From Kosakonia sp. BYX6 (GTDB lineage Bacteria > Pseudomonadota > Gammaproteobacteria > Enterobacterales > Enterobacteriaceae): a DNA stretch of 64,000 bases. The notes beneath the pieces are model-generated. The model had not been told where the DNA came from. It searched no databases and saw only the letters and a list, made by a program, of their open reading frames with translations. The stretch's first letter is position 1. Each line of letters starts with the position of its first letter. Shown piece by piece: positions 46,693 to 56,411 of this stretch. The stretch is from positions 2,762,406-2,826,405 of the forward strand of contig NZ_CP151800.1 in assembly GCF_038449125.1 (NCBI RefSeq), given 5' to 3'. The position numbers were made by a program, and so were the translations under genes.

Positions 46693-48693
46693 TTACAACA
46701 ACGTTTTGGCGGTATCGACAATGTTGCCGACACGGAAGCCGTACAAATCAAACAACTGCTCTGCCGGCGCCGATTCACCGAAGGTGGTCATGCCGACCAC
46801 CGCGCCGTTCAGGCCGGTGTACTTGTACCAGAAATCAGCGATGCCGGCTTCGATGGCAACGCGTGCGCTCACCGCTTTCGGCAGCACGGATTCACGGTAC
46901 GCCGCATCCTGCTTATCGAACGTGTCGGTGGACGGCATGGAAACCACGCGCACTTTCACACCTTCGCCGGACAGACGCTCCCCGGCGGCCACCGCCAGTT
47001 CCACTTCTGAACCGGTGGCGATGAAAATCACCTGCGGCTGACCGTCGCAGTCCTTCAGCACGTACCCGCCGCGGGCGATATCCGCCAGCTGCTGTCCGGT
47101 ACGCGCCTGCTGGGCCAGGTTCTGGCGCGACAGAATCAGCGCGGTCGGGCCGTCGTGGCGCTCCACACCAGATTTCCACGCCACCGCCGATTCCACCTGG
47201 TCGCACGGACGCCAGGTGCTGACGTTCGGGGTCAGGCGCAGGGACGCCACCTGCTCCACCGGCTGGTGCGTCGGGCCGTCCTCGCCCAGACCGATGGAGT
47301 CATGGGTGTAGACCAGCACCTGGCGCTGTTTCATCAGCGCCGCCATACGCACCGCGTTACGCGCGTATTCAACAAACATCAGGAAGGTGGAGGTGTACGG
47401 CAGGAAACCGCCGTGCAGGGCGATGCCGTTGGCAATCGCCGTCATGCCGAATTCGCGCACGCCGTAGTGAATGTAGTTGCCTGCGGTGTCTTCATTAATC
47501 GCTTTCGAACCGGACCACAGGGTCAGGTTGCTCGGCGCCAGGTCAGCAGAGCCGCCGAGGAACTCCGGCAGCAGCGGGCCGAAGGCTTCGATGGCGTTCT
47601 GCGAGGCCTTGCGGCTGGCGATTTTCGCCGGGTTCGCCTGCAGTTTCGCAATGAAGTCGTTCGCCTTCGCGGCGAAGTCTTCCGGCATCTCACCCTTCAT
47701 GCGGCGGGTGAACTCAGCGGCTTCCTGCGGGAAGGCTTTCGCGTAAGCAGCGAATTTTTCGTTCCAGGCGGACTCTTTCGCCTGACCGGCTTCCTTCGCA
47801 TCCCACTGCGCGTAGATTTCAGACGGAATCTCAAACGGCGCGTGCTGCCAGCCAAGCTGTTCACGGGTCAGCGCGATTTCCGCGTCGCCCAGCGGCGCAC
47901 CGTGGGCGTCGTGGGTGCCGGCCTTGTTCGGCGAGCCGAAACCGATGATGGTTTTGCACATCAGCAGCGACGGTCTGTCGGTCACGCTGCGCGCCTCTTC
48001 CACCGCGCGTTTGATGGCGTCCGCGTCATGACCGTCCACGCCGCGCACCACGTGCCAGCCGTAGGCTTCAAAGCGTTTTGCGGTGTCGTCGGTGAACCAG
48101 CCTTCCACGTGGCCGTCGATGGAGATGCCGTTGTCGTCATAGAACGCCACCAGTTTGCCGAGCTTCAGCGTCCCGGCCAGCGAGCAGACTTCATGGGAGA
48201 TGCCTTCCATCATGCAGCCGTCGCCCATAAAGGCATAGGTGAAGTGGTCAACAATGTCGTGGCCCGGGCGGTTGAACTGCGCGGCCAGGGTCTTTTCGGC
48301 AATCGCCATGCCCACGGCGTTGGCAATGCCCTGCCCCAGCGGACCGGTGGTGGTTTCCACGCCCGCGGTGTAACCGACTTCCGGGTGGCCCGGGGTTTTT
48401 GAGTGCAGCTGGCGGAAGTTTTTCAGCTCTTCAACGGGCAGGTCGTAGCCGGTGAGGTGCAGCAGGCTGTAAATCAGCATTGAGCCGTGGCCGTTGGACA
48501 GCACAAAGCGGTCGCGGTCAGCCCAGGCCGGGTTTGTCGGGTTGTGGTTCAGGAAATCACGCCACAGGACTTCGGCGATGTCAGCCATGCCCATCGGGGC
48601 ACCCGGGTGACCGGATTTGGCTTTCTGTACCGCGTCCATCGAGAGCGCACGAAGCGCGTTGGCGCGCTGGCGCCGTGCATTTGCTGTGTTCAT
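46693..48693 (-). CDS. tktB: Transketolase (TktB-like)
   Basis: A 666-residue thiamine-pyrophosphate enzyme that transfers two-carbon ketol units between pentose, tetrose and hexose phosphates. Motifs are [18 protein letters not shown], the TPP-binding GDGCMMEG...DDNGISIDG, and [17 protein letters not shown]. It follows talA, the order of the E. coli talA-tktB operon, so I call it TktB. Here it ends a longer operon with sugar catabolic genes and could recycle erythrose 4-phosphate. Codon use is more biased and GC-rich than in its neighbours, as expected for a highly expressed gene. Confidence 0.93.
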
Positions 48694-48713: not shown

Positions 48714-49664
48714 TCAGAGCATCTGGCGAATCAGGTTTTCCAGCTTCAACTGGTCAACGGCAAACAAGCGGATCCCTTCGGCCAGCTTCTCCACCGCCAT
48801 CGCGTCCTGGTGATGTTGCCAGAGGAATTCCGACTGGCTCATCGGGCTGGGGCGCGTTTCGCTCACGCAGCCAGGGGTAAGCTGGCGGGTCAGCGGCGCG
48901 TCGCAGGCGGCCAGTTCATCCAGCAGGGCCGGAGAAATCGTGAGGCGATCGCAGCCGGCCAGCGCCTGAATCTGCTCAATGCGGCGGAAGCTCGCGCCCA
49001 TCACCACCGTTTCATAGCCGTGGGCTTTGTAATACTGGTAAATGTCGCGCACTGATTTCACGCCCGGATCGCTTTCAGCGCGGTACGGCGTTTGCGGGTC
49101 ATTTTTTTGATACCAGTCGTAAATGCGCCCGACAAACGGCGAAATCAAAAACGCGCCGGCTTCGGCGCAGGCGCGGGCCTGGGCGAAGGAGAACAGCAGC
49201 GTCAGGTTACAGTTGATCCCGCTGCGCTCTAACTCTTCTGCCGCGCGGATCCCTTCCCAGGTGGCGGCCAGTTTGATCAGAATGCGCGACGGCGCAATGC
49301 CGTTTTCCTGATAAAGCTGAATCAGTTTGCGCGCACGGGTCACGCACATGCCGCGATCCCAGGCGAAACGGGCATCCACTTCGGTGGAGATACGCCCCGG
49401 CACATGGCGCAGCACTTCGCTGCCGATATCCACCGCGACCTGATCGCAGGCGTTGATCAGTTGCGTTTCAGCGCTGCCGCCCTGCCGACGCGCTTTGCCG
49501 ATGGCGTCGGCGATCAGCGCCTGATATTGCGGCAATTGCGCGGCTTTGAGCACCAGCGACGGGTTGGTGGTGGCGTCCTGCGGGGCGAATTTTTTAATCG
49601 ACTCGATATCCCCGGTATCCGCAACGACGACGGTCATCTCTTTTAACGCGTTTAATTGGTTCAT
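48714..49664 (-). CDS. talA: Transaldolase A
   Basis: A 316-residue class I transaldolase that transfers dihydroxyacetone units in the non-oxidative pentose phosphate pathway. Motifs are [16 protein letters not shown], the Schiff-base Lys in [21 protein letters not shown], and [22 protein letters not shown]. The length equals E. coli TalA; the sequence is rather divergent from it. ATG 49664 (GGAG upstream) is chosen over TTG 49679. It lies 20 bp before tktB and 11 bp after the RpiB-family gene. Confidence 0.93.
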
Positions 49665-49675
49665 CACAGGCTCCG

Positions 49676-50134
49676 TCAATCTCTGGCATGCTGGTTTTGG
49701 TAGTAATCAATGCGTTCCACTTTTGCCGCAGAGCCGCCCCCTTCATATTCCGCTTCCAGCCACGCCTGGATAATTGTTTTGCCCAGTTCCGCGCCAATCA
49801 CGCGTGCGCCGAGGGTGATGATTTGCGCGTTATTACTTTTGCGCGCCCGTTCGGCGGAGAACGTGTCGTGGCATTGTGCGGCACGGATGCCCGGCACTTT
49901 ATTCGCGACAATGCTCATGCCAATCCCGGTACCGCAAATCAGAATTCCCCGGTCGTGCTCACCTTGTTTAATAGCCATCGCAACGTCATGGGCAACATCC
50001 GGATAATAATTCGCGCCTTTTCGTTTATCGCTACTGTAATCGACAACAGTAATATTTTGCTGCGTCAGATAATTCACAATGGCATCGCGAAACGCATAGG
50101 CTGCATCATCTGCACCAATGGCGATTGTTTTCAT
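49676..50134 (-). CDS. RpiB/LacAB-family sugar-phosphate isomerase
   Basis: A 152-residue isomerase. It has [16 protein letters not shown] at the start, the Cys-containing active-site loop [17 protein letters not shown], and [26 protein letters not shown]. RpiB converts ribose 5-phosphate and ribulose 5-phosphate; relatives (EryI, DerI, LerI) interconvert tetrulose phosphates and erythrose 4-phosphate. With a second triosephosphate isomerase, talA and tktB nearby, a tetrose-phosphate role fits better than housekeeping RpiB. This is inference. Confidence 0.88.
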
Positions 50135-50149
50135 AACAGTGTCCTCAAA

Positions 50150-50518
50150 TTATTCACAGTAAATACAGATTTGATTCCCAGGGAGAATAATCTCGGGCGT
50201 CACCCCACAAAGGTGGACCGTGCCGGGTAATTCAGCGTCAATGGCGCCGTCAAAATTAAGGGTAATATGGCCAAGCTGTTTTAAATTTGCCGTTGCCACT
50301 GAGCCAACGGCGGTAATGCGATAATTTATGGCGTTAATCGTCAGGCGCTGGCCGGGTAATAACACGCCGTTGAATTTACCCGGTTGGTGTATTGCGCAAT
50401 AGTCGGCAATATCCGTGGGGACCGGTTCCGCAAACAGAATTAATTTATCTTGCCGTAAATACGCGGCGACAAAATCCCCGACTTGCGTAATCACTAACTG
50501 GTACAACGGCGCGGACAT
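50150..50518 (-). CDS. Stand-alone PTS glucitol/sorbitol-type IIA protein
   Basis: A 122-residue protein of the SrlB (EIIA type 5) family. The phospho-accepting His is conserved at H44 in YCAIHQPG, as is the later LGHITLNFDG and the strand ELPGTVHLCG. It would accept phosphate from HPr. No IIC channel gene is present. The matching IIB-type domain is fused to the kinase encoded two genes upstream (51625-53337), its likely partner. It sits 1 bp after the KdgT-family permease stop and 15 bp before the isomerase gene. Confidence 0.87.
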   Translation of the reverse strand: MSAPLYQLVITQVGDFVAAYLRQDKLILFAEPVPTDIADYCAIHQPGKFNGVLLPGQRLTINAINYRITAVGSVATANLKQLGHITLNFDGAIDAELPGTVHLCGVTPEIILPGNQICIYCE

Positions 50519-50519
50519 C

Positions 50520-51539
50520 TTATTTATTCCCTTTACTGACCTGCGACGACAGCGGCAGCGTTTTTTTCTCCGGCGCGGTGTTTTCTTCCACCACCACCGG
50601 CGCGCGCGCTTTCAGTCGCTTATCAAACCAGGCCACCAGTACCGGCGCCGTTAACATGGTGATGATGCTGGCGGTCGCCAGTTGCGCGGTGGCGGCATCG
50701 ACATACACCGCCAGCGACGGGTCCGCTTGCGCTACCATTGCCGGGGTCAGCGCGGAGCTGGCCGCCGTGGTGCCAAGCGCTGCGCCGAGCGCCGTTTTCT
50801 TCTTCAAAAACAAGTTGTAGAGGAAGTAGAACATGATGCCGGTACAGGCCGAAATCAGGCCAAGCACAATGCCCGACAGCCCGGCAGTAAACACCGTGTT
50901 GATGCTGGAATTCGCGCCGATGGCGAACGACATAATGATGATAATCAGCGGCTGCGCCGCGGCGCAAAGCTGCTTAAAGCGCTCATCCAGGTTGCCCCAT
51001 AACATGCCGATCAACAGCGGGATCAGCATTGAGAGCAGCGCAGCGAAAGGAATGTTCGCCAGCCCGCTCACGCCAAGCACCATCATGGTGACAAACGGGC
51101 CGTCTTTGACGCAGAACACCGAGATCGCCCCGGCGTCGCTGGCATCGCCGTAGTTGCTGCACAGTGCAATGTAGAGCGAGCTGTTGGAGCTGGTCAGGCA
51201 GGCGACAAAAGCCAGCGTGGAAATGCCCAGAAACCCGGCCGGGCCAAACATCGAGCCGACTAACCACACCGCCAACGCCCCGGCGATACATTTGAGGACA
51301 AGCAGTACGGCACCTTTATAGAGCGGCAAACCGGCCTGGCGAATATTGATCGACGTGCCGCAGATCAGCAGAAATATGCCCATCATGGCGCTGGATCCGA
51401 CTTTAAATAATGCCGTTGTCGGCCCACCGATAGTGAGAACTTGCGGCGCAAAGGTATTAAGCAGAATAGCGACCACCAGCGGAATAATAATGAGACCGCC
51501 GGGCACCTTATTCATTTTGTCTAAAATATTAATGTTCAT
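50520..51539 (-). CDS. 2-keto-3-deoxygluconate permease (KdgT) family transporter
   Basis: A 339-residue membrane protein with about ten helices. It starts KMNKVPGGLIIIPLVVAILLN and contains LACLTSSNSS-like (FVACLTSSNSSLY) and FKDGP-like (FCVKDGPFVTMM) motifs of the KdgT proton symporters. In Salmonella, a KdgT-type transporter lies beside the D-threonate kinase and pdxA2 genes. Here it probably brings in the four-carbon acid or a related substrate without phosphorylating it. It has its own 85-bp upstream gap, which may contain a promoter or a processing site. Confidence 0.9.
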   Translation of the reverse strand: MNINILDKMNKVPGGLIIIPLVVAILLNTFAPQVLTIGGPTTALFKVGSSAMMGIFLLICGTSINIRQAGLPLYKGAVLLVLKCIAGALAVWLVGSMFGPAGFLGISTLAFVACLTSSNSSLYIALCSNYGDASDAGAISVFCVKDGPFVTMMVLGVSGLANIPFAALLSMLIPLLIGMLWGNLDERFKQLCAAAQPLIIIIMSFAIGANSSINTVFTAGLSGIVLGLISACTGIMFYFLYNLFLKKKTALGAALGTTAASSALTPAMVAQADPSLAVYVDAATAQLATASIITMLTAPVLVAWFDKRLKARAPVVVEENTAPEKKTLPLSSQVSKGNK

Positions 51540-51624: not shown

Positions 51625-53337
51625 TTATTGCAGTGATTCTTTATAAATATGTTCAACGATGGTGCTGATAATATCTTCCGGCCCGGTTAATCCCCCTTTC
51701 CCCACGCACACCAGCCCGGCATATTGTCCACCGATAATGCGCACCATATCGGTTTGCGGAATAACGTAGTCGATCATTTCAATCCCGGTCGCGCCTAATT
51801 CCTTCAGCACATTAACCATCGTATCGCCGCCGGTCATATATAACCCTTTGATCTCATCCGGGGCGCAATTCAATATTTCTTTGACGATGCTGCCGAGTCC
51901 TTTATTGATATTATCCGCCGCCTGGCCGTGATCGAGATTAAAGCGTTGCTCCTCTTCACGCAGATCCAATAACCGGCCAGTGAGCGCCGATTCAAACACA
52001 AACAGCGCGTTTTTATGGGTGGTCACGCACTGGTGCGCCTGGCGCACGATACGGCTGATTTCGATTTCTGCGGCGTTCTTCCTGTCCACCAGCAGTTCGG
52101 CATCCACCGGAATATGGCAAACGCGATCGTCGTGAGCAATCAAATGCCCAAGCTGCTTTTTGGTGACCGGCGTCGCGCTGCCCGCGACAATCACCACAGA
52201 ACCGCGCTGGTCGCTGCGGGGCAAAGGCTGCTGCGCCAGGCGTTTGTCCTCACGCATTAATCCGCGATGCACCGCCAGCCGTTCGGTAAACGGGCCGGGA
52301 TCGACCGCCAGCACATTCCAGTTCAGCGCCACCACCGCACGAGCGATCGCGTCTACGTCATCAAGGGTAATCGCGTCCACCACAATCACGCGCGCCCCGT
52401 CCTGCTGGCGATCTTGTAACTGCTGCTGGATCTGCCCGTCGCCCTGCATCACCTGCGCCAGCGCGATATGGCCGACATGGTGTTGCGTTTGATTGGCCAG
52501 CAAGCCCGGCACCCAGGATTCGGTGACTGGCGTGCGCACATCGCGCGCCACATCGGTACAAGAGAGCGCCACCGAATCGATAACCGAATAACCGCCGACC
52601 AGAATACGCCGCGATTGCGGCATCGCCGGCACCACCACTGCCACCGTTTCCTGCGGCAACAGCGCTAACATGGCGTCGATTTCGTAGCCAATTCCGCCGC
52701 GCAGGGTCGTATCGATCCGTTTGGTGAAGTAGTGCGCGCCGCGCGCTTTCAGTTGTTCCACCGCCGCACTGACGCGCTGTTGCGCTTCGGCTTTCGGTAA
52801 CGGGCGGCTGTCGCTGCTCACCACCATTGCCGGGTAGTCCACTTCATTGCGGGCAAAGGAGTCGGTGTCGAAAAACGCCGCGGTTTTCAGCCCGCTGCGC
52901 GCCAGCAGCACGCCAACCGTGGTGGCGCCCGTCAGATCGTCGGCGACGATCCCCAGTTTGCCGCCTTCCCCGGCCGGGTAAACCCGTTCGATACACGCCG
53001 GTGTTACGCCGGAGACGTAAATATCTTCATGAATGTATTCGGCCAGCGGGCCGCTTTTCCCGGTGTGGTGCAAGTTAATGGTCGGAATACCGCGCTTCGG
53101 GTACAACCCGCAGCGCAGCGTGCCGCCGCAGTCGATCACCATCACGCCGATATCATCCGGTTCACCGTGTTTGAACACATCCACCGACGGCCAGCCGGTC
53201 AGTTCACACAACCGGTCAACCACCGGCGGGCGAATGCCCCCGGTGATATAGGCGATTTTTTTCGGCTGGCTGAGCGACACCTTTAACGGGCCGCCCCAGC
53301 CTTTACTGCCTTTACTAATTAACAGATAGTTTTCCAT
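51625..53337 (-). CDS. Fusion: PTS glucitol-type IIB domain + DUF1537 four-carbon acid sugar kinase
   Basis: A 570-residue two-domain protein. Residues 1-115 match the IIB domain of Srl[55 protein letters not shown] (C70 and C76; one is the phosphocysteine), and [20 protein letters not shown]. Residues 127-570 are a DUF1537/OtnK-type kinase: [29 protein letters not shown], and the C-terminal ATP-binding [18 protein letters not shown]. Known members phosphorylate D-threonate or D-erythronate at C4. The SrlE membrane domain is absent. The start ATG 53337 has GAGGGA upstream; ATG 53361 is possible. It lies just after pdxA2. Confidence 0.9.
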
Positions 53338-53364
53338 TCTCTGTCCCTCAGTAGTCATCACGCC

Positions 53365-54372
53365 TTAGTGCTGTTTCATTTTCCAGTAACGCGCCGCGAC
53401 CAGCGTGGATTCCAGCATGCTGACAGTGCCTGCTTTACCGGTACCCGCAATATCAAACGCCGTACCGTGATCCACGGAGCTGCGCATAAACGGCAGGCCG
53501 AAGGTAATGGTGATCGAGCGTTCAAAATCGAGGGTTTTACAGGCGATATGCCCCTGATCGTGGTAGAGCGAAAGAATGGCGTCGTACTTGCCAAGCTTGC
53601 CGAGGTGGAACACGGAATCCGCCGGAACCGGGCCAATAGCATTAATACCTTCCGCTTGCGCCGCTTTCACCGCCGGGATCAGGTTATCCGCCTCTTCATG
53701 ACCAAACAGACCGTTATCGGAACCATGCGGGTTCAGCGCGGCTACCGCAATGCGCGGGTTCTTGATATTCAGGGCGGTAAATTCATGGTTGATTTGCTGA
53801 ACACAGGCCAGTACGCGCTCTTTGTTGGCGTAGTCACAGGCATCTTTCAGCGCCATATGGCGGCTCACAAAGAAGACGCGCAGGTTATGCACGTGGAACA
53901 TGGTCAGGCCGTAATCGGAGCGGGTTTCGACCTGGTAAATTTCAGTGTGCCCCGGCAATTTGCAGCCCGCCAGCTTGATGGCTTCTTTATGAATCGGCGC
54001 GGTGGACACCACATCAATCAGCCCCGCCATGCCCAGTTCGATGGATTTCATCACGTAATCCAGTGACATTTTGCCCGCCAGTTGCTGCACTTTGCCCCAG
54101 GCAATACTGCCGTAGTCGTAATCGCCGGTTTCCAGCACATCCAGCGTGCCCCAGCTGAACTTCGCCTGATCCGGGTGGGTGATTTTGTTGATCGGGTAGT
54201 CGCAACCCTGGATTTTCATCGCCCGTTCAATAATCGGCACAGAGCCAATAAGAAACGGTTTGCACTCGTCGTAGACGCTTTTGTCCATCAACGTGGCAAC
54301 GGTGATTTCCGGGCCGATCCCAGCGGGATCGCCAATAGTGACGGCTACAACGGGTTTTTTCTCTACAGACAT
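53365..54372 (-). CDS. pdxA2: PdxA2-type 4-phosphotetronate dehydrogenase (PdxA paralogue)
   Basis: A 335-residue NAD-dependent dehydrogenase of the PdxA family. Motifs are VAVTIGDPAGIGPEITV, metal-binding His in TAPIHKEA and PGHTEIYQ, NPHGSDNGLFGHEE, and LYHDQGHIACKTLDFERSITIT. PdxA2 enzymes oxidise and decarboxylate 4-phospho-D-threonate (or erythronate) to dihydroxyacetone phosphate, the step after a DUF1537 kinase. That partner gene follows directly. It heads the leftward operon, with the divergent control region upstream. Confidence 0.9.
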   Translation of the reverse strand: MSVEKKPVVAVTIGDPAGIGPEITVATLMDKSVYDECKPFLIGSVPIIERAMKIQGCDYPINKITHPDQAKFSWGTLDVLETGDYDYGSIAWGKVQQLAGKMSLDYVMKSIELGMAGLIDVVSTAPIHKEAIKLAGCKLPGHTEIYQVETRSDYGLTMFHVHNLRVFFVSRHMALKDACDYANKERVLACVQQINHEFTALNIKNPRIAVAALNPHGSDNGLFGHEEADNLIPAVKAAQAEGINAIGPVPADSVFHLGKLGKYDAILSLYHDQGHIACKTLDFERSITITFGLPFMRSSVDHGTAFDIAGTGKAGTVSMLESTLVAARYWKMKQH

Positions 54373-54404
54373 CGTCGGACCTCTCGGTAATTGAAACGCT
54401 GTTC

Positions 54405-54435
54405 GTTCATATGTTCACTACTAAATCATATGAAC
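54405..54435. promoter_or_regulatory. Perfect inverted repeat, candidate SorC-family operator
   Basis: GTTCATATG (54405-54413) and CATATGAAC (54427-54435) are exact reverse complements with a 13-base spacer. The site is 33-63 bp upstream of the pdxA2 ATG. The divergent locus encodes a SorC-family regulator that could bind it. Confidence 0.6.
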
Positions 54436-54465
54436 ATAACGTTAACCGAAGAATCGCCAATGAGG

Positions 54466-54481
54466 AGTGATGAAGATCACA
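54466..54481. promoter_or_regulatory. CRP-cAMP binding site
   Basis: AGTGA, TGAAGA, TCACA matches nine of ten consensus bases in TGTGA-N6-TCACA, with an A-rich right flank. It is nearly midway between the divergent start codons and could activate both operons. Confidence 0.7.
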
Positions 54482-54618
54482 TTAAAAATCGCGGCTGATT
54501 TTTAATCGCAAAAGTGTGATCTAACATATGCTCAGTTAATGAATAAATGTTCAAATTGCACAATGTGCGGCATACCTGATCAGACAACTGACTGATTAGC
54601 AAAGAAATGGAGAAACAG

Positions 54619-55413
54619 ATGAAACGCCTGATGATTGGCACTAGCTGGAAAATGAATAAACCGTTATCGCAAGCGATGGCCTATTGCGAGGCGCTCGCCG
54701 ACCAATTACCGGCGGTTTTGCACCCGGCCATTCAACCCTTTTTTATCCCGCCGTTTACCGCGATTCATCCGGTGAGTGAATTCTTCCGCGCCCATAACCT
54801 ACCTTGTTTGACCGGCGCACAGAATATGCATCAGGCGGAAAATGGTGCCTGGACTGGCGAAATCTCCGCCAGCATGATTAAAGAAACCGGCGCGACGCTG
54901 GTGGAAATGGGCCATTCCGAGCGGCGCGGCGCCTTTAATGAAACCGACGCGGCAATCAATACCAAAGTGCACACCGCCCTGCGCCACAACTTGCGCCCGC
55001 TGGTCTGTATTGGCGACAGCGCCGATGAAAAGCGCTGGGGCGTGTCGGAGGAAACGGTGTTTCGCCAGATGAAAATCGCGCTGTTTGGGTTGAGCGCCGC
55101 GCAGGCACAGCAAACATTAATTGCCTACGAGCCGATTTGGGCGATTGGTGAAAACGGCACGCCTGCCACACCTGCACAAGCGGGTGACATTCATCGGGCG
55201 CTGCGCACCGCGTTAACGGAGTTGTATGGCGCGGAAGATGGCGCAAAAATCCCGCTGTTGTATGGCGGCAGCGTTAATCTGCAAAATTGCGCGGAACTCG
55301 CCGCACAGCCCAATATTGATGGTTTATTTATTGGGCGTGCCGCCTGGGACGCCGCGGGGTATTGCGCAATTGTGCAACGCGTAGCGCAGGATTTTATCGG
55401 CAAAGCACAGTAG
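54619..55413 (+). CDS. Second triosephosphate isomerase (TpiA2/EryH-like)
   Basis: A 264-residue TIM-family protein. The substrate-loop Lys is in GTSWKMNK, the electrophilic His in EMGHSERRG, the catalytic Glu in IAYEPIWAIG, and the phosphate loop in LLYGGSVN. It is divergent from housekeeping TpiA and located in a catabolic locus. Candidate roles are conversion of dihydroxyacetone phosphate, or, as in EryH of Brucella, tetrulose 4-phosphate isomerisation. ATG 54619 has GGAG upstream; ATG 54607 is four codons earlier. It is followed by the regulator gene. Confidence 0.9.
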   Translation: MKRLMIGTSWKMNKPLSQAMAYCEALADQLPAVLHPAIQPFFIPPFTAIHPVSEFFRAHNLPCLTGAQNMHQAENGAWTGEISASMIKETGATLVEMGHSERRGAFNETDAAINTKVHTALRHNLRPLVCIGDSADEKRWGVSEETVFRQMKIALFGLSAAQAQQTLIAYEPIWAIGENGTPATPAQAGDIHRALRTALTELYGAEDGAKIPLLYGGSVNLQNCAELAAQPNIDGLFIGRAAWDAAGYCAIVQRVAQDFIGKAQ

Positions 55414-55448
55414 TATGTGGGCGTTATCAGCAATGGAAAAAGACTGCG

Positions 55449-56411
55449 ATGGCTGAACAAGACTCTGATTATGAACTGCTAACGGAAATCGCTGTGGCGT
55501 ATTACGAGCAGGAACAGACCCAAGAAGAGATCGCGCAACGGTTTGGTATCTCGCGCATTAAAGTCGGCAGGCTGCTGAAAAAAGCCCGCCATGAGGGGAT
55601 CGTTGAAATCAACGTCAAATATCACCCGGTCTTTAGTTCGCAGATTGAACAACAGTTCATCCAGCATTTTGGGATCAAACGGGCATTGATTGCCCTCGAT
55701 CACCACGATGAAGATGAGCAACGCCAGCAGGTTGCCGCGCTGGTCAGCAACTACCTTGCCACGATCCTGAAAAGCGATATGACGGTAACCGTTGGTCAAG
55801 GGCGCAATGTCGCGGCGGTCGCCAATCATGTCGGCATTTTCCCGGAACGCGCCTGCCGGTTTATTTGCGGAATTGGCGGCACTAAACGCGATGGTCAATT
55901 GATTGACGCCGACCACATCAGCCGTAACCTGGCGCGCAAGTTCAATGGTTTTAGCGAAACGTTGTACGCCCCGGCGTATGTTGAAACCCCGGCGCTGCGC
56001 GAAGCGTTTATTCAGAACCGGTTGATCAAAGCGACGCTCGAACAGGCGAGTAAAGCGGATGTGGCGCTGATTGGCCTGGGAGATATGAACGAAAACAGCT
56101 TTATGGTGCAACTGGGCTGGTTTACGCCACAGGAAATTATCACCGCCCGCCAGGAACAGGGTGTGGTCGGCGACCTCGCCGGTTACAGCTTTTTTAATAT
56201 CCAGGGCACGCCGGTAGACACGGTGATGAACGATCGGGTGATCGGCTTAAGCCTTGAGCAGCTTCGCACCATTCCCTGCGTAATTGCGATTGCCTCGGAA
56301 AGCACCAAGGCCACCGCCATTCTCGGCGCGTTGCGCACCGGTGTGATTGACGTTCTGGCGACCAGCGCCTCGAACGCCCGCACGGTGATCAACCTGCAAA
56401 AAGCCCTGTAA
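55449..56411 (+). CDS. SorC-family (DeoR/EryD-like) transcriptional regulator
   Basis: A 320-residue regulator. The N-terminal helix-turn-helix reads YEQEQTQEEIAQRFGISRIKVGRLLKKARHEGIVEI (abbreviated: T-Q-E-E-I-A, then S-R-I-K-V-G-R-L-L). A sugar-phosphate-binding SIS-like domain follows, with VTVGQGRNVAAVA, LIGLGDM, GDLAGYSFFNIQG and IASESTKATAILGALRTG. Such proteins respond to phosphorylated sugars. EryD of Brucella belongs to the same family. It probably controls both divergent operons. ATG 55449 is chosen; the frame extends upstream into the isomerase gene. Confidence 0.9.
   Translation: MAEQDSDYELLTEIAVAYYEQEQTQEEIAQRFGISRIKVGRLLKKARHEGIVEINVKYHPVFSSQIEQQFIQHFGIKRALIALDHHDEDEQRQQVAALVSNYLATILKSDMTVTVGQGRNVAAVANHVGIFPERACRFICGIGGTKRDGQLIDADHISRNLARKFNGFSETLYAPAYVETPALREAFIQNRLIKATLEQASKADVALIGLGDMNENSFMVQLGWFTPQEIITARQEQGVVGDLAGYSFFNIQGTPVDTVMNDRVIGLSLEQLRTIPCVIAIASESTKATAILGALRTGVIDVLATSASNARTVINLQKAL

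Follow-up and report, generated by a model that had tools for sequence, protein, structure and literature searches.

What does a phosphocysteine domain of the phosphotransferase system (PTS) do when it is fused to a sugar-acid kinase? The question is raised by one open reading frame (ORF) in a 64,000-nucleotide stretch of DNA from Kosakonia sp. BYX6 (contig NZ_CP151800.1), the whole of which we call the window. In this ORF, a IIB domain of the glucitol class runs into a kinase of the DUF1537 family. We suggest that the fusion phosphorylates a sugar acid with ATP and is controlled by the PTS, a reading to which we assign a probability of about 0.52.

A glucitol-class IIB domain joined to a complete DUF1537 kinase

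The initial annotation placed at 51625..53337 an SrlE-type IIB domain with an intact Cys motif, followed by a complete DUF1537 kinase and devoid of the SrlE membrane part. The coordinates are correct, and the strand, which it had not given, is minus; on that strand the interval is a single 570-aa ORF encoding a IIB domain and a DUF1537 kinase, and the plus strand carries many stops. A GTG start at 53361 could extend the protein by eight N-terminal residues. The fusion and its parts are:

51625..53337, minus strand: IIB-DUF1537 kinase fusion, 570 aa (ORF translation, Pfam, alignments to solved chains)
52981..53337, minus strand: glucitol-class PTS IIB domain, residues 1-119 (Pfam EIIBC-GUT_N 6-119; 9x2m match)
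53128..53130, minus strand: codon of Cys70, the probable phosphocysteine (Cys in 60 of 60 IIB rows)
53110..53112, minus strand: codon of Cys76 (Cys in 59 of 60 IIB rows)
52279..52956, minus strand: DUF1537 domain SBD_N, residues 128-353 (Pfam, E 6.6e-60)
51670..52194, minus strand: DUF1537 domain NBD_C, residues 382-556 (Pfam, E 2.3e-29)

The Pfam model EIIBC-GUT_N matches residues 6-119 (profile positions 3-118 of 184, E 3.7e-46) at 157.6 bits against a cut-off of 22.8, which places the domain, conserved Cys included, among glucitol-class IIBs; the Cys motif lies at residues 65-82 and both of its cysteines are kept, as had been claimed. Nine residues separate the end of this match from the start of the kinase match, in which SBD_N (203.2 bits, cut-off 25) is followed by NBD_C (103.4 bits, cut-off 28.3), as expected of the DUF1537 kinase family. 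Residues 4-116 align with the solved glucitol/sorbitol EIIB chain 9x2m (E 6.5e-45) and residues 125-525 with the DUF1537-type chain 4xfm (E 3.6e-32). The NCBIfam models for SrlE, NF049924 and TIGR00825, give 150.4 bits where 400 are required and 162.2 where 458.7 are required, and their matches stop at profile position 120 of 330 and 117 of 331, respectively, so the membrane part is indeed absent. In the predicted structure (mean pLDDT 87.0, pTM 0.75), the linker at residues 123-125 falls below 50. We thus confirm a genuine fusion of a IIB domain, a short linker and two complete DUF1537 domains. An assembly or frameshift artefact is ruled out by a 96% identical copy in a genome of the same genus and by an identical junction in other genera.

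The operon, its spread and its history

The operon is transcribed in the order PdxA family, fusion, KdgT permease, glucitol-class IIA, RpiB family, transaldolase and transketolase, and the genes for a TPI-family isomerase and a SorC-type regulator diverge from it. It contains a glucitol-class IIA and no IIC.

53365..54372, minus strand: PdxA-family dehydrogenase/decarboxylase (Pfam, NCBIfam)
50520..51539, minus strand: KdgT-family sugar-acid permease (Pfam)
50150..50518, minus strand: glucitol-class PTS IIA (PF03829; His44 and His84 aligned)
49676..50134, minus strand: RpiB-family isomerase, possibly EryI/DerI-like (46% identity to the RpiB of a Rhizobium erythritol-type locus; NCBIfam)
48714..49679, minus strand: transaldolase (Pfam, NCBIfam; longest ORF, TTG start)
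46693..48693, minus strand: transketolase (Pfam, NCBIfam)
54607..55413, plus strand: TPI-family isomerase, EryH-like (identity to erythritol-type-locus TPI; motifs)
55449..56411, plus strand: SorC-type sugar-binding regulator (PF04198; ATG start picked by eye inside the longer ORF 55362-56411)
54466..54481, no strand assigned: CRP-like site, one mismatch, in the divergent intergenic region

The element TGTGA-N6-TCAC of the CRP-like site is retained, as judged by eye, in six of seven aligned divergent regions, the exception being Pectobacterium. Only this conservation counts in its favour, because the window as a whole shows no enrichment of such sites (164 with up to three mismatches, against a mean of 187.6 expected). 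A promoter scan found none at the divergent intergenic region. Repeated TGAACATATG-like words, mostly kept across the aligned genera, occur at 54373-54606 of the window and are a candidate SorC operator.

The fusion is conserved across several genera. Most of the gene set is present in loci of Klebsiella, Raoultella, Kosakonia, Pantoea allii, Mixta and Pectobacterium, and the gene order is identical in the Klebsiella record NZ_CP098173, which annotates the fusion as 'four-carbon acid sugar kinase family protein'. This record is labelled a plasmid; in its stretch NZ_CP098173.1 166274-191989 the operon is flanked by mfd, lolCDE, nagK, cobB and potABCD, so that the record resembles a chromosomal piece. 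Among the long loci, two are reduced to PdxA, fusion, KdgT and IIA (L037, L044), one lacks IIA (L046), three lack transketolase (L042, L047, L048) and one has only a trace of it (L043). In K. pneumoniae ATCC 13883, the operon TPI gene is split into two adjacent same-frame ORFs with one stop codon between them (L041, 8482-8484).

A scan of genome contigs with six peptides of the window protein, a query that misses distant cases, returned 26 loci, of which 17 span the fusion (frameshift-broken in L053 and L054), seven have the kinase only, one has the IIB only and one is a contig-edge fragment; Kosakonia oryzendophytica matched the window fusion at 95-96%. In the relatives sample, 20 of 38 genomes gave some match, with the full fusion only in the window's own genome and G005. 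At 1e-60, 13 of 392 genomes of the family sample matched, so the locus is patchy; 11 of these, the own genome included, cover both domains (G142 with a stop), and the other two are G057, which lacks the IIB, and G058, which is broken up. The order sample gave two matches in 247 genomes at the same threshold, the own genome and the kinase-only G940, and the phylum sample gave the IIB domain in 16 of 398 genomes (19 places), only the window's own lying in a frame longer than 458 aa. No place in 5426 E. coli genomes covered 80% of the 3.2-kb query, the 20 matches listed being srlE over 9% of it. Among 1042 matching plasmid records, two cover 80%, namely the Klebsiella record and a Rhizobium otnK stretch at 25%.

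To trace the origin of the fusion we used two trees. In the IIB tree of 60 rows, from which the frameshifted L033 was dropped and in which the IIB parts of the broken L024 and L053 were retained, a single branch (98/86) separates the 25 fused rows from all others, within the SrlE of gammaproteobacteria; the tree is based on few columns. In the kinase tree of 24 fused and 10 unfused hand-chosen rows (broken copies, some repeats and L058 left out), the fused/unfused label needs two changes, and G057 is nested in a 100/99 branch of otherwise fused rows. We read the two changes as one gain and one loss, suggesting a single origin of the fused IIB. The G057 kinase begins MEKHSLMGKGSKE, resembling the first residues of a fused IIB, and then continues directly into the kinase; this genome has lost the IIB domain, the glucitol IIA and SrlE, and has kept the kinase ORF and KdgT.

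Purifying selection acts on the IIB domain in all eight pairs compared (dN/dS 0.0165-0.0879) and on NBD_C in seven of the eight, those that were computable (0.0182-0.0671); SBD_N gives 0.0157-0.0624 over eight pairs, and the loop at residues 356-381 is looser than the domains. The kinase motifs of the fusion are kept in relatives, and the KGGLTG-type motif is shared with close relatives that lack the IIB. These kept motifs, together with the selection on NBD_C, rule out a degenerate ATP domain.

Candidate relay partners and possible control of the kinase

Both cysteines are kept in all 25 fused rows; Cys70 is the likelier phosphosite, since its conservation among the IIB rows is complete and that of Cys76 is not. 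A glucitol IIA was found in 22 of 22 fusion genomes tested, including three with broken fusion copies (G142, G989, G990), and in none of the three IIB-less kinase genomes tested (G057, G793, G940), a set outside which the Clostridiales and Actinotignum fall. Of 20 genomes searched for IIA, 19 had a glucitol IIA, in 11 of them only beside the fusion; of 20 searched for IIB, 19 had a glucitol IIB, which in 12 was the fused copy alone (broken in G142 and G989) and in 7 was accompanied by SrlE; the genomes in these retention counts are related, so the events are not independent, and some are drafts.

In Tolumonas, Zophobihabitans and Gilliamella, no IIA gene is linked to the fusion, and the IIAs of these genera adjoin SrlE-type genes. 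In the IIA alignment, every row has His at the His84 position; at the His44 position, the only rows without His are those of Pantoea sp. A4 and of L086 and L087, which are distant. The only glucitol IIA of Pantoea sp. A4 carries Ile there, and the strain keeps Cys70. If His44 is the phosphosite, matching the residue at which SrlB is presumably phosphorylated, the relay would be broken in this strain; if it is His84, the strain is no exception. Of the HxH present in enterobacterial SrlB rows, the second His is absent from the operon IIAs, as it is from some SrlB rows (L090 and one of L061). L086 and L087 are divergent glucitol-like PTSs in which the IIB cysteine lies in NCAGS and the His44 position of the IIA is Leu.

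We propose that the KdgT permease brings in an unphosphorylated acid, that the DUF1537 part would phosphorylate it with ATP, and that the operon IIA would pass phosphate from HPr to Cys70 of the fused IIB. In the absence of a IIC acceptor, the phosphorylation state of the IIB would switch the attached kinase. In the most likely direction, phospho-IIB (PTS idle) would permit kinase activity and unphosphorylated IIB (PTS sugar flowing) would restrain it, which would agree with the CRP-like promoter site. PdxA would then oxidise and decarboxylate the phosphorylated acid, and the two isomerases, transaldolase and transketolase would convert the product via erythrose-4-phosphate into the pentose phosphate pathway. 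A relay ending at a soluble ATP-dependent kinase fits a IIA without IIC, the retention of sole copies, and the joint loss of IIB and IIA in one lineage; judged from these patterns, the relay most likely controls the kinase. The initial annotation's suggestion that the IIB may report PTS state to the kinase is plausible.

Phospho-IIB might instead give its phosphate to the acid in SBD_N, or recharge ADP, the kinase replacing IIC as acceptor. DhaM feeds DhaL in a somewhat similar way, and the sole fused IIB in 12 of 19 genomes, the nine-residue spacing and the paired cysteines of the 25 fused rows would all suit such a transfer. It is difficult to reconcile with an NBD_C that is intact and under purifying selection in the seven computable pairs of eight, with a KGGLTG-type motif that is the same in close IIB-less relatives, and with a lineage that dropped the IIB yet kept the kinase ORF, and we consider it improbable. 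Another possibility is that IIA and IIB serve a different partner (the KdgT permease, the sorbitol PTS or the SorC regulator, for example), the fusion merely coupling their expression. IIAs of other PTS classes regulate permeases, and here the IIA and permease genes adjoin; against this, 12 of the 19 genomes with a glucitol IIB retain the fused copy although a search revealed no SrlE in them, and G057 keeps KdgT and the kinase with no glucitol IIA or IIB at all, making this explanation rather unlikely. The IIB could also be a structural or oligomerisation module with no part in a phosphorelay, as the three genera without a linked IIA and the His44-less IIA of Pantoea sp. A4 would allow. Such a module would hardly require Cys70 in 25 of 25 fused rows or a glucitol IIA in each of the 22 fusion genomes tested, and we consider this explanation improbable as well. 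We favour control of an ATP-dependent kinase by the relay.

Proposed pathway, candidate substrate and known systems

Threonate or erythronate, which the initial annotation named for kinase assays, is now less supported as the substrate. The fusion scores far under the NCBIfam cut-offs for D-threonate kinase (NF047819, 206.4 bits, cut-off 450), 3-oxo-tetronate kinase (NF043035, 145.8 bits, cut-off 350) and the 3-oxo-isoapionate kinase OiaK (NF042436, 78.6 bits, cut-off 700), and the genes around it in the operon point tentatively to tetrulose phosphates. Compared with the TPI of a Rhizobium johnstonii 3841 locus, the operon TPI shows 46.7% identity, and with TpiA of its own genome 34.3%. From its gene make-up (FGGY kinase, G3P dehydrogenase, TIM barrel, SorC and DeoR regulators, TPI, RpiB), the R. 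johnstonii locus is probably erythritol catabolic. GTSWKMN, a longer loop 6 and GLF(I/V)GR.AW occur in all eight operon TPI rows and all four rhizobial-type rows, but in neither TpiA row, which instead carry GNWKLN and GALVGGASL. The window TPI (372.5 bits) and the Rhizobium TPI (436 bits) also pass NF000722 (cut-off 293). An ordinary second TpiA is unlikely, given that identity pattern and motifs differ from TpiA, and by the same features the operon TPI appears to resemble EryH of erythritol catabolism. In the TPI tree, TpiA stands apart at 100/100, and the operon group is weak (62/85) and not joined to the erythritol loci. Pasteurella, Actinobacillus, Clostridiales and K. variicola TPI rows have the EryH-type motifs only in part, and the Actinobacillus TPI passes NF012036 rather than NF000722.

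The operon RpiB appears to resemble EryI less clearly than the TPI resembles EryH: it misses the EryI/DerI D-erythrulose-4-phosphate isomerase model NF051858 (179.2 bits, cut-off 240) and passes the rpiB model (142.5 bits, cut-off 138.65), the same mixed NCBIfam outcome as for the Actinobacillus and Clostridiales proteins. In Actinobacillus, a Clostridiales MAG and Actinobaculum, genes of the TPI and RpiB families are found close to PdxA and an unfused kinase. The operon TPI is absent from three genomes (G978, G985, G057) that encode a different TPI-family protein bearing the motif G(I/L)FLGRFAH; this motif also occurs in a plasmid cluster of Klebsiella that includes a DhaK-family kinase. A conjugative K. 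variicola plasmid (L096, 464-7888) carries tkt, tal, an RpiB-family gene, a DhaK-family kinase, a TPI-family gene and a SorC-type regulator, likely an erythrulose catabolic set.

PdxA oxidises the hydroxyl next to CH2OP, and the carboxylate is lost. For PdxA to yield a tetrulose phosphate suited to an EryH-type enzyme, the acid would have to be a 2-C-(hydroxymethyl)tetronate. A plain C4 acid is less favoured, since it would yield DHAP and RpiB, transaldolase and transketolase would be left unexplained. Alternatively, a linear C5 acid would lead from a pentonate 5-phosphate directly to erythrulose-4-phosphate. EryH is reported to be a D-3-tetrulose-4-phosphate isomerase and EryI a D-erythrose-4-phosphate isomerase (PMC5992420), erythrose-4-phosphate to enter via transaldolase and transketolase (PMC10190533), and D-threonate to be taken up by a KdgT permease in E. 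coli (PMC10079672). That the operon leads through tetrulose phosphates to erythrose-4-phosphate, rather than to simple threonate use, has in our estimate slightly less than an even chance, a figure lowered slightly for the mixed NCBIfam family scores. A branched substrate of the 2-C-(hydroxymethyl)tetronate type is more tentative and, as an identification, unlikely. We consider very unlikely the combination of a soluble PTS, in which phosphate would pass from PEP through EI, HPr, IIA and IIB and end on the acid or on bound ADP in the DUF1537 site, with a new branched-C5-acid route (2-C-hydroxymethyl tetronate, isoapionate) via tetrulose phosphates to erythrose-4-phosphate.

If our main reading is true, a branch of the PTS ends at a soluble enzyme, not a transporter, and is kept in genomes where no SrlE was found; a catabolic kinase under direct control would then join the known layers of carbon control by the PTS. 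Through its fused IIB, the kinase may sense the activity of the cell's main sugar-uptake system. The operon further suggests an uncharacterised sugar-acid pathway in common enterobacteria, the role of which may be masked by database names (four-carbon acid sugar kinase, TPI, RpiB). Among the papers listed by literature searches on the architecture, we recognised none describing a IIB-DUF1537 protein; an ExPEC paper mentions a PdxA2-DUF1537 pair, and its text contains neither 'sorbitol' nor 'glucitol'. Background on the DUF1537 family is given in PMC10971088.

With SrlE, the IIBC of the glucitol/sorbitol PTS, the fusion shares the N-terminal IIB domain and its cysteine motif (65% identity to SrlE of its own genome over residues 5-125), but it lacks the membrane part and IIC and is joined to a kinase; at position 54, Val is found in 24 of the 25 fused rows and Ile in the remaining one, and all 20 SrlE rows compared have Gly. 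With the DUF1537 kinases for D-threonate, D-erythronate, 3-oxo-tetronate and 3-oxo-isoapionate it shares SBD_N and NBD_C, and two unfused members (L019, L020) also have PdxA and KdgT neighbours. Unfused members in the relatives sample are 24-31% identical to the fusion, in which the IIB domain is extra; the closest IIB-less members reach 41-50%, and G057, which lost its IIB, 76%. DhaK-DhaL-DhaM is likewise a soluble kinase coupled to the PTS, but there PTS phosphate replaces ATP, whereas the ATP domain of the fusion is intact. The TPI-PTS glucose/sucrose IIB fusion of NCBIfam NF011497, compared by title only, also places a PTS IIB on a metabolic enzyme, with another IIB class and another enzyme. 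Finally, the counterparts in a Rhizobium locus with the gene make-up of the erythritol catabolic locus (eryABCDHI) are 46.7% (TPI-type), 46.1% (RpiB-type) and 24.9% (SorC-type regulator) identical to the proteins of the fusion operon, which differs in its entry enzymes: a permease, a DUF1537 kinase and PdxA.
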